Made by a program: the position numbers and the translations under genes. This document shows positions 58,752 through 64,000 of a stretch of DNA of 64,000 nt, piece by piece. Source of the DNA: Rhodoligotrophos appendicifer. Its GTDB lineage: Bacteria > Pseudomonadota > Alphaproteobacteria > Rhizobiales > Im1. The notes under the pieces were generated by a model that ran no database searches, had not been told where the DNA came from, and worked only from the letters and a program-made list of their open reading frames with translations. The stretch lies in assembly GCF_007474605.1 (NCBI RefSeq), contig NZ_VHKL01000017.1:1-64000 (forward strand), read 5' to 3'. Numbering within the stretch: position 1 is the stretch's first letter; every line of letters begins with the position of its first letter.

Positions 58752-58838
58752 GCGGACGTGGCGAAACCGGTAGACGCACCGGACTTAAAATCCGTTCCCC
58801 GCAAGGGGGTGGGGGTTCGAGTCCCCCCGTCCGCACCA
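58752..58838 (+). tRNA. trnL: tRNA-Leu (anticodon UAA)
   Basis: The acceptor stem GCGGACG (58752-58758) pairs with CGTCCGC (58828-58834). The anticodon loop CTTAAAA gives UAA. A variable arm CCCC-GCAA-GGGG and a T arm GGGGG-TTCGAGT-CCCCC are present; A58835 is the discriminator and CCA (58836-58838) is encoded. The outermost pair of the anticodon stem is a C-T mismatch, the only irregularity. It starts at the base after the stop of the CinA-like gene and may depend on the same transcript. Confidence 0.95.
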
Positions 58839-59480: not shown

Positions 59481-60074
59481 ATGGCTCGAAAATATGTTCG
59501 CCTTTCCTTAATCCAATGGGCGCAGGTGCGCGCCAGATGGGAAGCTGGAGAAAACACTCTCGAAGAGCTCTCGGCCGAATTCTCGGTCAGTCGGAGGGCC
59601 GTTCAGGCGCATTTATCGAAGCACGGCGTCGTTAAGGGCGCTGCAGCAGCAGAGATCGCGGCATCCGTCAGAGAGGAAGTTTTCTCGGAGTGCCTGGACA
59701 ATCACGATCTAACATTGAGCCGAGCGAGATCCACTCGGGAAGCTGCCTACGCGCACGCACTTACAATTGAAAATTTAATAATGACGCAGCTCAAGCTCGC
59801 TTCAGATCCATCTCAAGTTGCGAGGGCGAGCGCTGGTGTTCGGATGCTTGTTTCCGCTGCGGCTGGCTTGGAAAGGCTGCACGAACTCAAGTACCGGGCG
59901 TTGGGGTTGGAAAAAGCCGATCATCTCCAAGACCAGCTTCCGGAAATCATTATACGAGATCTGTCACAAGAAGAAATCACCGAGTTGCAAGCAGCCGAGG
60001 AGGGGGATGACGATCTTGAATCAGGTCTCGTTGAACCTTTATGTTCGGAGGATGACGTCATCGTCGAACTGTAA
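59481..60074 (+). CDS. HTH protein resembling a phage terminase small subunit
   Basis: The 197-residue product has an N-terminal helix-turn-helix (TLEELSAEFSVSRRAVQAHL, about 27-46), a helical middle, and an acidic C-terminus (IRDLSQEEITELQAAEEGDD). This pattern recalls phage terminase small subunits, but no large subunit or other phage gene is present, so it may be a prophage remnant or an unrelated DNA-binding protein. The ATG at 59481 has a poor site. An in-frame ATT at 59457 lies behind AGGAGA and would add eight residues. Confidence 0.6.
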   Translation: MARKYVRLSLIQWAQVRARWEAGENTLEELSAEFSVSRRAVQAHLSKHGVVKGAAAAEIAASVREEVFSECLDNHDLTLSRARSTREAAYAHALTIENLIMTQLKLASDPSQVARASAGVRMLVSAAAGLERLHELKYRALGLEKADHLQDQLPEIIIRDLSQEEITELQAAEEGDDDLESGLVEPLCSEDDVIVEL

Positions 60075-60355: not shown

Positions 60356-61999
60356 TCATCCTTCTGAGAGCGGCAAAGGTGGAAGACCAAGCTCCTGCAA
60401 GAATGTGTTGTGCTGCGCTGTCGCTTCGCGAACCTGCTTCTCGATGTCGACCAAGTATTTATGGGCAGCGACCAGATCGATTTCGAGTTCCTCCTCGGCC
60501 GTGCTGATGTAACGTGAGATGTTGAGGTTGTAGCCCTCTGCAGCGATACGTTCCATACTCACGCGCGTGGAATAACGGTCCTCTTCCGTGCGGAACTGGT
60601 AGGTCGAGACGATCTTACCTATATGATCCGGCGTCCCATTCTTGCCATCTCCCAATTTGTTTTGGCGCTTGTCCTTTAGGAAAAGCTCTGCCGCGTTGAT
60701 GAGGAGTACGTCGTCCGGCTTCTTGCACTTCTTCAGAACAAGGATGCAGACCGGGATGCCGGTCGAGTAGAACAGGTTCGCAGGCAGGCCGATCACCGTG
60801 TCGATGTGACCATCCTTCAGCAACTTGGTTCGGATACGCTCCTCTGCCCCTCCTCGGAACAGCACGCCGTGAGGGAGGATGATGGCCATCACACCTTCAT
60901 CCTTCAGATAGTGAAAGCCGTGCAGCAGAAAGGCAAAGTCCGCGGCCGATTTGGGCGCCAGCCCGTAGTTCTTGAACCGCACATCGTCGCCCATCGCCTC
61001 AGTCGGTTCCCAGCGGAGGCTGAAGGGCGGGTTGGCCACGATGGCATCGAAGGAGGGCTTCTTGGCGGGGTTCAACTCGCGCAGAATGTCCCAGTCATTG
61101 TTCAGCGTGTCGCCGTGGTAGATTTCGAACTCCGTGTCCTTCACGCCGTGCAACAGCATGTTCATGCGGGCGAGGTTGTAAGTGGTGATGTTCTTTTCTT
61201 GCCCGTAGATTCTGCCGATGCCGTGTGGACCCATGCGCTTGCGCACGTTCAGCAGCAACGAGCCTGAACCGCATGCGAAGTCGAGCACACTGGCGAGCCG
61301 CTCCTTCTTCCCGGTTGCGGGCTCCTGGCTGTCGAGCGTCACAATCGCGGATAGGATGTCTGACACCTGCTGCGGGGTATAGAACTCGCCCGCCTTCTTG
61401 CCCGAACCGGCGGCGAATTGGCCGATCAGATATTCGTAGGCGTCGCCCAGCGCATCCACATCCGAGGAGAAGTCGGCAAGCCCTTTGGCGATCTCGGTGA
61501 TGATGGCGCAGAGTTTGGCGTTGCGATCAGCGTACGTCCGGCCGATCTTCTCAGAGCTGAGATTGATTTCCGAGAACAGCCCACCAAACGTGCTCTGGAA
61601 CGACTCGTTTTCGATGTATTTGAAGCCCGCCTGCAGGGTGTTCAACAGTTCGTCGTTCTGGATGCGCGCCATGTGGGCGATGCTGGTCCAGAGGTGTTCC
61701 GGCTTGATAACGTAGTGCGCCTTAAGACGCATCTGCTTTTCAAAGGCCACCACATCATCGGGGTTCTCCGCGTACCAGACAGATAAGGGCGAGCGCCCGC
61801 CATTGCCGATCGCGTTGGGATCTGGGTAGTCGCGCCCGAGCTCCTTCTTCGCGGCCATCTCATAGTTGTCAGAGAGGTAGCGCAGGAACAGGAAAGACAG
61901 CATGTAATCGCGGAAATCGTCGGCGTTCATCGCGCCGCGCAGCTGGTCGGCGATGTTCCAGAGCGTTTTGCCCAGTTGTTTTTGGTTATGATCGTTCAT
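60356..61999 (-). CDS. hsdM: Type I restriction-modification DNA methyltransferase subunit HsdM
   Basis: HsdM methylates adenine in the target set by HsdS, using S-adenosylmethionine. The 547 residues have the HsdM N-terminal helical domain (QLGKTLWNIADQLRGAMNAD), SAM motif DFACGSGSLL (D240-G246), and catalytic NPPF (323-326). A C-terminal coiled segment contains IDLVAAHKYLVDIEKQVREA. Its ATG overlaps the stop of the nuclease gene by four bases. The restriction subunit hsdR is not in the window. Confidence 0.95.
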   Translation of the reverse strand: MNDHNQKQLGKTLWNIADQLRGAMNADDFRDYMLSFLFLRYLSDNYEMAAKKELGRDYPDPNAIGNGGRSPLSVWYAENPDDVVAFEKQMRLKAHYVIKPEHLWTSIAHMARIQNDELLNTLQAGFKYIENESFQSTFGGLFSEINLSSEKIGRTYADRNAKLCAIITEIAKGLADFSSDVDALGDAYEYLIGQFAAGSGKKAGEFYTPQQVSDILSAIVTLDSQEPATGKKERLASVLDFACGSGSLLLNVRKRMGPHGIGRIYGQEKNITTYNLARMNMLLHGVKDTEFEIYHGDTLNNDWDILRELNPAKKPSFDAIVANPPFSLRWEPTEAMGDDVRFKNYGLAPKSAADFAFLLHGFHYLKDEGVMAIILPHGVLFRGGAEERIRTKLLKDGHIDTVIGLPANLFYSTGIPVCILVLKKCKKPDDVLLINAAELFLKDKRQNKLGDGKNGTPDHIGKIVSTYQFRTEEDRYSTRVSMERIAAEGYNLNISRYISTAEEELEIDLVAAHKYLVDIEKQVREATAQHNTFLQELGLPPLPLSEG

Positions 62000-63225
62000 T
62001 GTGCAGGTGCTTCCTCGGGGGCGGGCGCAGGCGCCAGGGCTGCGGACTGGGTGGCGACAACGCCTGGCAAGGCGAACTCAAACCGCGTGATGAACTCGCG
62101 CAGGATGCGGCGGAAAAGTTCCTTGTTGTCCTCGCCCATTTCAGTGGGTTCATGGATGGCATAGGCGCCGTGGCTCAGCAGGTGGAGAGCACGGCTGAAC
62201 AGCGCCCGATCTTCTTCGTTGTCGAGCGCCTTCAGGCAGAAGGCCATGCTTGGGTGACCGAAGAAAGAGGCTGTTTTCTCCATGACGCTGCGCAAAGCGT
62301 TGAAGTGGAAGGTGTAAAGCTTCCCCTTCTCGGGATCGGCGGCACGCTGCAACTCGGCTAAAGTGGCGACGTGGTGAAAGAAGGGCGTATCCTCCGTTGC
62401 CTGAAGCGTATAGGCGCCGTCGCCGTTAGGGCGATGCAAGAAATAGCGCTTGTGGGTGACCTTAGGCTCGCCGTCGGTCCGCCTGCCCACTTCGTTGCAC
62501 ATGACGTTGAAGAACAGCGCGTGGTGGGACGAGAAGATCACCCTGATCGGCGCGGGTGCACCGTCGACATTCTTTCGCGTTGCTGCGCGGCGGAGGAGCT
62601 TGGCCAGGTCGCAGGCCACGGAAATCGCGTTGTTGTCATCCAGCGACGAGATCGGGTCGTCGATGTAGAGATATTTCTTCCCTTGATAGGATTCATGCCC
62701 ATCCAGCATCCGTTCGCAGATGGCCATGAAGATGCACCAGATGAAGATGTTCTGCTCGCCGCGCGACACCTTGATGTTAGGAACGCCGTCCTTTTCGAAG
62801 CTAACGAAATCGGGTTTGGCGACGGTCTCGTTGCCCTGCTGAACCTCTTTGTATGTGAAGTCGAAATCGAAGTCGGCGTATCGGGAAAGATACTGAGCAA
62901 TCGTTTCGTCCAACGCGAGTTCGGTCATTGCGTTGAAGAAGGACGACTTCTCGTTCAACTGCAGGCGGCGCATGCTGTCGCCTTCGAGGTCGTTTTCCCA
63001 GACGAACAGATCCTCGGTAAAAGCGTTGAAATAAAGCGTGTCGGGCGTCCCGGTCAGGTTCTTCTTCGTCTTGCGCTTGCCTGCGTCCTTGAACTCCATC
63101 GACAGGCGCGTCTTGCCGGTGCGGTTATAGGCGTAAATCAAGAGCAGTGAGATGGGCTTCGTGGGGTTGTTAAGGTCGTCACGAAGCCGCGCTACCAGCG
63201 ACTTTAGGGTCTTGTACTTGCTCAC
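61996..63225 (-). CDS. prrC: PrrC-family anticodon nuclease (ABC-type ATPase with RNase domain)
   Basis: The 409-residue protein resembles E. coli PrrC, which is held inactive by a type I restriction complex and cuts tRNA-Lys in the anticodon loop when a phage inhibits restriction. ATPase part: Walker A NRTGKTRLS (34-42; the usual NGTGKT has Arg at 35), NAFTEDLFVWENDL (67-80), signature SRGE (154-157), Walker B YLYIDDP (185-191), D-loop SSLDD, H-loop SSHH (232-235). C-terminal part: R312, E316 and H348, with spacings 4 and 36 equal to those recalled for the PrrC triad R320-E324-H356. It overlaps hsdS and hsdM by four bases each. Activity and tRNA target are inferred; an Ala/Pro-rich tail (391-409) is unlike PrrC. 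Confidence 0.85.
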   Translation of the reverse strand: MSKYKTLKSLVARLRDDLNNPTKPISLLLIYAYNRTGKTRLSMEFKDAGKRKTKKNLTGTPDTLYFNAFTEDLFVWENDLEGDSMRRLQLNEKSSFFNAMTELALDETIAQYLSRYADFDFDFTYKEVQQGNETVAKPDFVSFEKDGVPNIKVSRGEQNIFIWCIFMAICERMLDGHESYQGKKYLYIDDPISSLDDNNAISVACDLAKLLRRAATRKNVDGAPAPIRVIFSSHHALFFNVMCNEVGRRTDGEPKVTHKRYFLHRPNGDGAYTLQATEDTPFFHHVATLAELQRAADPEKGKLYTFHFNALRSVMEKTASFFGHPSMAFCLKALDNEEDRALFSRALHLLSHGAYAIHEPTEMGEDNKELFRRILREFITRFEFALPGVVATQSAALAPAPAPEEAPAQ

Positions 63226-64000
63226 GCGTCATCCTCCCCGACGGACGGGAAAAGCTGCTGCATCAGCCCCTTTTTGTGGGTCTTGAGGGTGTCAAGCTTT
63301 TCGGTCTCGGCGGCGATGAGGTTGTCGAGGGAGGTCAGACAGTCGGCGATGCGCTTTTGCTCGGGTTCTTTAGGGAGCGGAATCGGGATGCTGTCGAGCT
63401 TAGCTTTGTTCAGCTTGGGCTGGGCCATTCCCGTGATGAAATCATCTAGCTTGATCGAGTTGAGATAGACTTCAACGAATTTCTGAGTGAAACCATTCTT
63501 GAATCGCAGGGCATGCGCATGGTTGTTTACCCAAGTCTTTCCGGAGATGGCGAAAGCAATTGGGTAGGTTCGAGCGAGAAGATTTGCGCCGTCTTCCGAA
63601 ACACACAGCAGATCTTCGTCAAAGATATAGCCGTAAACATAATCAACAATGCCAGAGGCACCGTAGTACGGCACGCTACCAGCAACGCGGTCGCCAGAAG
63701 TTATCGGAACCCGCTTACTGTCGAGATTCTCGGCTACTTTCCCGAGAGGCTTCACCCCCCACTCCCCGGTTCCCTCAAACTCGGGGAAGCGGAGGCGGGG
63801 TTGGGTTTCGCCTTCCTGCGGGAATAGCTGCTGGATCAGGCCCTTCTTGTGAGCCCTCAAGGCCTCCACCTTACGCGCCTGCGCCTCAATCAGCGCGTCC
63901 GCAGAGTCCAGACATTCGGCGATCTTTTGCTGCTCGGACAGGCTTGGCGTGGGAATTTCGACGCCGAAGAACGTCTCTTTGCTGATGTTTAGCAAACCGT
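63222..64000 (-). CDS. hsdS: Type I restriction-modification specificity subunit HsdS, partial
   Basis: Only the C-terminal 259 or so residues are in the window; the gene continues beyond 64000. A Met at 63995 is not the real start, since the text begins at the end of the first target-recognition domain. Seen are a central conserved helix (PTPSLSEQQKIAECLDSADA and LRAHKKGLIQQLFP), the second recognition domain (about 90-205), and the matching C-terminal helix with LKTHKKGLMQQLFPSVG. The paired repeats are the spacer helices that set the gap in the bipartite target. It overlaps the nuclease gene by four bases (ATGA). Confidence 0.93.
   Translation of the reverse strand, partial: GLLNISKETFFGVEIPTPSLSEQQKIAECLDSADALIEAQARKVEALRAHKKGLIQQLFPQEGETQPRLRFPEFEGTGEWGVKPLGKVAENLDSKRVPITSGDRVAGSVPYYGASGIVDYVYGYIFDEDLLCVSEDGANLLARTYPIAFAISGKTWVNNHAHALRFKNGFTQKFVEVYLNSIKLDDFITGMAQPKLNKAKLDSIPIPLPKEPEQKRIADCLTSLDNLIAAETEKLDTLKTHKKGLMQQLFPSVGEDDA

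Follow-up and report, generated by a model that had tools for sequence, protein, structure and literature searches.

A 64,000-nucleotide stretch of Rhodoligotrophos appendicifer DNA (contig NZ_VHKL01000017.1, positions 1 to 64,000; hereafter the window) carries an open reading frame for a PrrC-like protein among type I restriction genes. This raises the question of whether the protein is a genuine anticodon nuclease and whether it can still respond to a failure of restriction in this strain. PrrC proteins form a second line of defence coupled to type I restriction, as established for EcoprrI (PMC2610378, PMC3014915, PMC12707154). The features of the locus are listed below.

60356..61999, minus strand: hsdM, a 547-aa type I DNA methyltransferase subunit, apparently intact (TIGR00497, E 4e-111)
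61996..63225, minus strand: prrC, GTG start, 409 aa, with an ABC-ATPase domain (residues ~1-280) and a C-terminal HEPN-like domain (~282-388)
Within 61996..63225, minus strand: putative triad R312-E316-H352 and wobble-contact residue D279 of prrC, from alignment with E. coli PrrC
62062..62382, minus strand: codons 282-388 of prrC, C-terminal HEPN-like nuclease domain predicted from the structure model
63222..64000, minus strand: 3' part of hsdS; the frame continues beyond the window up to about 64262, the point of interruption by an IS21-family element

Identification of the PrrC protein

The PADLOC PrrC profile PDLC02360 covered residues 4-386 of the window protein (E 9.6e-127, 421 bits), a result comparable to that of the same profile with E. 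coli PrrC (7.7e-148). The runner-up profile was PDC-S06 with 34 bits. AAA_13 was the sole Pfam family reported, its match being weak like that to PDC-S06, and the NCBIfam search revealed no matching model. Alignment with E. coli PrrC (396 aa) yielded 31% identity over 348 aligned positions. The full-length profile match and this identity bear out the original prediction that 61996-63225 encodes a PrrC-like protein. All of the PrrC-style ATPase motifs that it listed are also present: NRTGKTRLS (residues 34-42), NAFTEDLF (67-74), SRGE (154-157), and YIDDP (187-191). Its sequence marks the product as a genuine PrrC, one of the HEPN anticodon nucleases, from a clade with the gene order hsdR-hsdS-prrC-hsdM.

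Among 397 genomes of the same order, 36 were matched by the PrrC profile, mostly as weak ATPase matches; strong matches (E < 1e-120) were found in only seven, the window's genome included. No phage-borne copies were detected when a phage collection was searched for PrrC homologues.

Conserved residues and predicted structure

Residue columns were read from a family alignment of 85 homologous sequences, including the window protein. For the E. coli reference, a PrrC query sequence retrieved an E. coli plasmid record annotated as 'anticodon nuclease' (99.7% identical to the query, with R320, E324, and H356 at those numbers), and the record's own sequence was used afterwards. The window protein has kept the ABC-ATPase residues K38, T39, S154, G156, E157, D189, D190, D196, and H234, so that Walker A, signature, Walker B, and linchpin-His positions are all conserved. 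The Walker A residues K38 and T39 were each conserved in 83 of the 85 sequences, the Walker B residue D190 and the linchpin H234 in all of them.

Substituting R320, E324, or H356 inactivates E. coli PrrC, in which D287 makes the contact to the modified wobble base (PMC3014915). R312 and E316 of the window protein fell on the columns of R320 and E324 (85/85 each), as predicted originally. The third member of the proposed triad, H348, did not fall on its column: it was aligned to N352 of E. coli PrrC, a position occupied by Asn in 81 sequences, Gln in three, and His in the window protein alone, and it was rejected as the catalytic histidine. H356 corresponds instead to H352 (His in 84/85). The separately run pairwise alignment gave the same mapping of the triad and of H348. 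By alignment, the catalytic triad is thus R312-E316-H352, and the assignment to PrrC survives the loss of H348 because H352 occupies the catalytic His column. The equal spacing (4 and 36 residues) that had been taken as a likeness to E. coli PrrC was a coincidence, seen because the wrong histidine had been picked; the distance from R to H is 40 in 63 of the 85 sequences, the window protein included, versus 36 in E. coli PrrC. D279 corresponds to D287 and is invariant in the family alignment (85/85), while the plain pairwise alignment, gapped in this stretch, was off by two residues. One homologue (L031, 1052-1372) was the only one of the 85 with Arg in the H352 column (LLSRGKYAI) and is possibly an inactive nuclease.

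The full-length model had a pLDDT of 80.7 and a pTM of 0.69. In the whole-model structure search, the listed matches were mainly Rad50/SMC-type ATPase heads, this one domain filling the list; the ATPase domain matched Rad50 and SMC heads best (Z up to 12.7), and PtuA was also a structural match. Modelled alone, the C-terminal domain (282-388) formed a helical bundle (pLDDT 87.2), with R312 and E316 in helix 306-321, R345 in helix 337-351, and H352 in the loop just after it. H352 is thereby placed where HEPN proteins carry their motif: R345-x6-H352, at the end of helix 3, fits the Rx4-6H motif described for PrrC and RloC (PMC3710099). A Foldseek search restricted to the nuclease domain found nothing at E <= 0.001. 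A second-look search yielded HEPN toxins, AbiV, or HEPN-MNT as the nine best matches, at Z values of 5.4-6.3, which are weak for a helical bundle. Solved PrrC structures were sought by phmmer and by profile, and none was found; at E < 1, only chance matches to enolase/RuBisCO-like proteins appeared. On the basis of the models, a HEPN-like fold is predicted for the C-terminal domain.

Operon organization in the window and in relatives

As originally proposed, prrC lies between hsdS and hsdM, although hsdS is represented by a fragment. ATGA overlaps had been claimed at both junctions. The prrC/hsdM junction is indeed a shared ATGA, the hsdM ATG lying over the prrC stop codon, but the hsdS/prrC junction is a shared GTGA. 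The scan for promoters and terminators gave nothing beyond the level of shuffled sequences. A tRNA-Leu(taa) gene at 58752-58838, some 1.5 kb away on the hsdM side, is a possible island integration site, and between it and hsdM a 197-aa protein is encoded (59481-60074) that matches the phage family phrog_867, a DNA-binding domain (E 4e-25).

We surveyed the operon order in 80 related loci from bacterial genomes. The order hsdR-hsdS-prrC-hsdM was found in 66 of them, with hsdR directly upstream of hsdS, and in two more with an extra gene. The remaining 12, most of them near a contig end, had hsdS-prrC-hsdM (seven loci), prrC-hsdM (four), or hsdS-prrC-hsdR (one); only L032 and L065 were devoid of hsdR despite ~9 kb available upstream. 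Linkage of prrC to hsdM, hsdS, and hsdR is therefore complete in most relatives. The order hsdM-hsdS-prrC-hsdR was seen for E. coli PrrC and for two relatives with 32-35% identity to the window protein. In the enterobacterial plasmid relatives L084 and L086, hsdR and hsdS of the prrC operon are separated by two extra genes; the annotations of the L086 pair are TrlF-family ATPase and RNA-binding-domain protein.

Interruption of hsdS and absence of hsdR from the assembly

The contig ends at 64347, and its last 86 bases (64262-64347) correspond to the left end of an IS21-family element. This end occurs in 11 copies in the genome, mostly at contig ends; contig 7 has a complete copy with genes for IstB (PF01695, E 1.6e-71) and for an IstA-like transposase. 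The element interrupts hsdS at about 64262; homologues extend ~65-85 residues farther upstream, and about 70 N-terminal residues have been lost. hsdR was sought throughout the 5.6-Mb assembly, rated 100% complete, with the HsdR of Tistrella, TIGR00348, and PF04313, and was not found. Since PF04313 (HSDR_N) scores Tistrella HsdR at 120 bits, it is able to detect the HsdR of this clade. The type I restriction locus in which prrC had been thought to be embedded is thus probably not intact in this strain.

Three other insertions in the genome have flanks that pair as target-site duplications. The 6-bp sequence CCCTGC, expected as the duplication here, does not stand at the start of any of the element's 11 right-end flanks. 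Several copies in the genome have flanks that do not pair in this way, which suggests IS-mediated rearrangement. Our inference is that hsdR was lost through recombination between copies of the IS. An assembly gap, with hsdR located in unassembled sequence, is possible, and the interruption, read as it is at a contig end, could also reflect misassembly or a variant carried by only some of the cells.

Taken further, such considerations would mean that the cell carries an intact operon, both the IS21 interruption and the missing hsdR being assembly artefacts, and that PrrC works as in E. coli. The contig does end at the IS21 junction, repeats such as IS21 break assemblies, and relatives have hsdR directly upstream of hsdS. 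However, the end of the element is joined directly to hsdS with 86 of its bases assembled, and hsdR escaped both the protein search and the searches with two families in an assembly rated complete. A simple insertion, moreover, predicts another contig bearing hsdR and the 5' portion of hsdS, a prediction at odds with the right-end flanks. We consider this explanation unlikely.

Alternatively, prrC could have become a stand-alone toxin with HsdM, or HsdM and truncated HsdS, as its sole silencer. Both prrC and hsdM are intact and overlap by four bases. The istA and istB genes are read towards hsdS-prrC-hsdM, so read-through expression of prrC is possible. Such a toxin appears quite improbable, and there is only a slim chance that prrC and hsdM, read from the IS21 element, form a stand-alone toxin/silencer module lacking a DNA-cutting subunit. 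If this were true, prrC would survive here without a working restriction enzyme.

The reading that best joins the data, to which we assign a probability of about 85%, is that the protein is a PrrC that is latent and triggered in intact relatives, and that here the trigger has probably been lost, with prrC and hsdM left as remnants. The operon has probably decayed in this strain. The restriction-linked trigger was probably lost with it, and prrC and hsdM would persist with silent or low expression.

Proposed function

As an anticodon nuclease, the window protein is likely competent, although the trigger that ties it to restriction has probably disappeared in this strain. In intact relatives, by analogy with E. 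coli PrrC and PrrC170, PrrC is most likely held latent by the adjoining type I restriction-modification complex. A phage inhibitor that neutralises this complex would release PrrC, and the freed protein would cut tRNA-Lys(UUU) in the anticodon loop by means of R312, E316, and H352, leading to a shutdown of translation. In this genome, with the IS21-family element in hsdS and hsdR missing, such triggering is probably no longer available. Cleavage of tRNA-Lys, latency, and triggering are all carried over from the two characterized proteins. The host genome encodes a tRNA-Lys(UUU) whose anticodon loop, CTTTTAA, matches that of the E. coli query gene, and tRNA-Lys is a likely target for the window protein, as for E. 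coli PrrC; at 31% identity, the tRNA cut may nevertheless differ from the E. coli target. A second-line defence acting when restriction is disabled, as originally suggested, is a known role of the family and likely for the intact relatives, but it is doubtful in this strain, given the interrupted hsdS and the failure to find hsdR.

Comparison with known systems

The window protein shares with E. coli PrrC of EcoprrI the domain layout, the ATPase motifs, and the conserved residues D287/R320/E324/H356, and differs from it in the low identity, the gene order (hsdM-hsdS-prrC-hsdR in E. coli), and the R-to-H spacing. The PrrC170 system of Klebsiella quasipneumoniae has the order of the window's clade, hsdR-hsdS-prrC-hsdM, and likewise combines type I restriction-modification partners with an ABC-domain PrrC (PMC11555353). 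PrrC170 blocks phages T1 and T7 and causes growth arrest and tRNA-Lys depletion (PMC11555353). It lies in an intact operon and is experimentally active, whereas the locus described here has an interrupted hsdS and lacks hsdR in the assembly. The homologue on a K. quasipneumoniae plasmid (L086), which we do not equate with PrrC170, is 51% identical to the window protein; L086 and PrrC170 are each about 35% identical to E. coli PrrC. In the locus on Tistrella mobilis pTM1 (NC_017957.2), PrrC is about 91% identical and has the same hsdS-prrC-hsdM neighbours, but hsdR and a full-length hsdS have been kept.

RloC has an ABC-ATPase and the same logic of the R/E/H triad (PMC2610378); it differs in a coiled-coil/zinc-hook insert and in excising the wobble nucleotide, and no such insert was found in the window protein when its 409 residues were aligned along E. 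coli PrrC. That the protein is RloC, PtuA, a PDC-S06-like protein, or another ABC-HEPN or ABC-effector rather than PrrC is extremely improbable and was rejected: the weak PDC-S06 and AAA_13 profile matches and the resemblance of the ATPase domain to PtuA and Rad50/SMC heads are outweighed by the full-length PrrC match (421 versus 34 bits for the next profile), the 31% identity over 348 positions, the compact length free of long coiled coils, and the conservation of NAFTEDLF and D279 with PrrC.

The locus contributes a well-conserved PrrC to an established family of defence proteins, and the corrected catalytic histidine, H352, is the residue that a mutagenesis study would target. Its broken operon offers a natural test case of whether the silence of PrrC needs a complete restriction complex.
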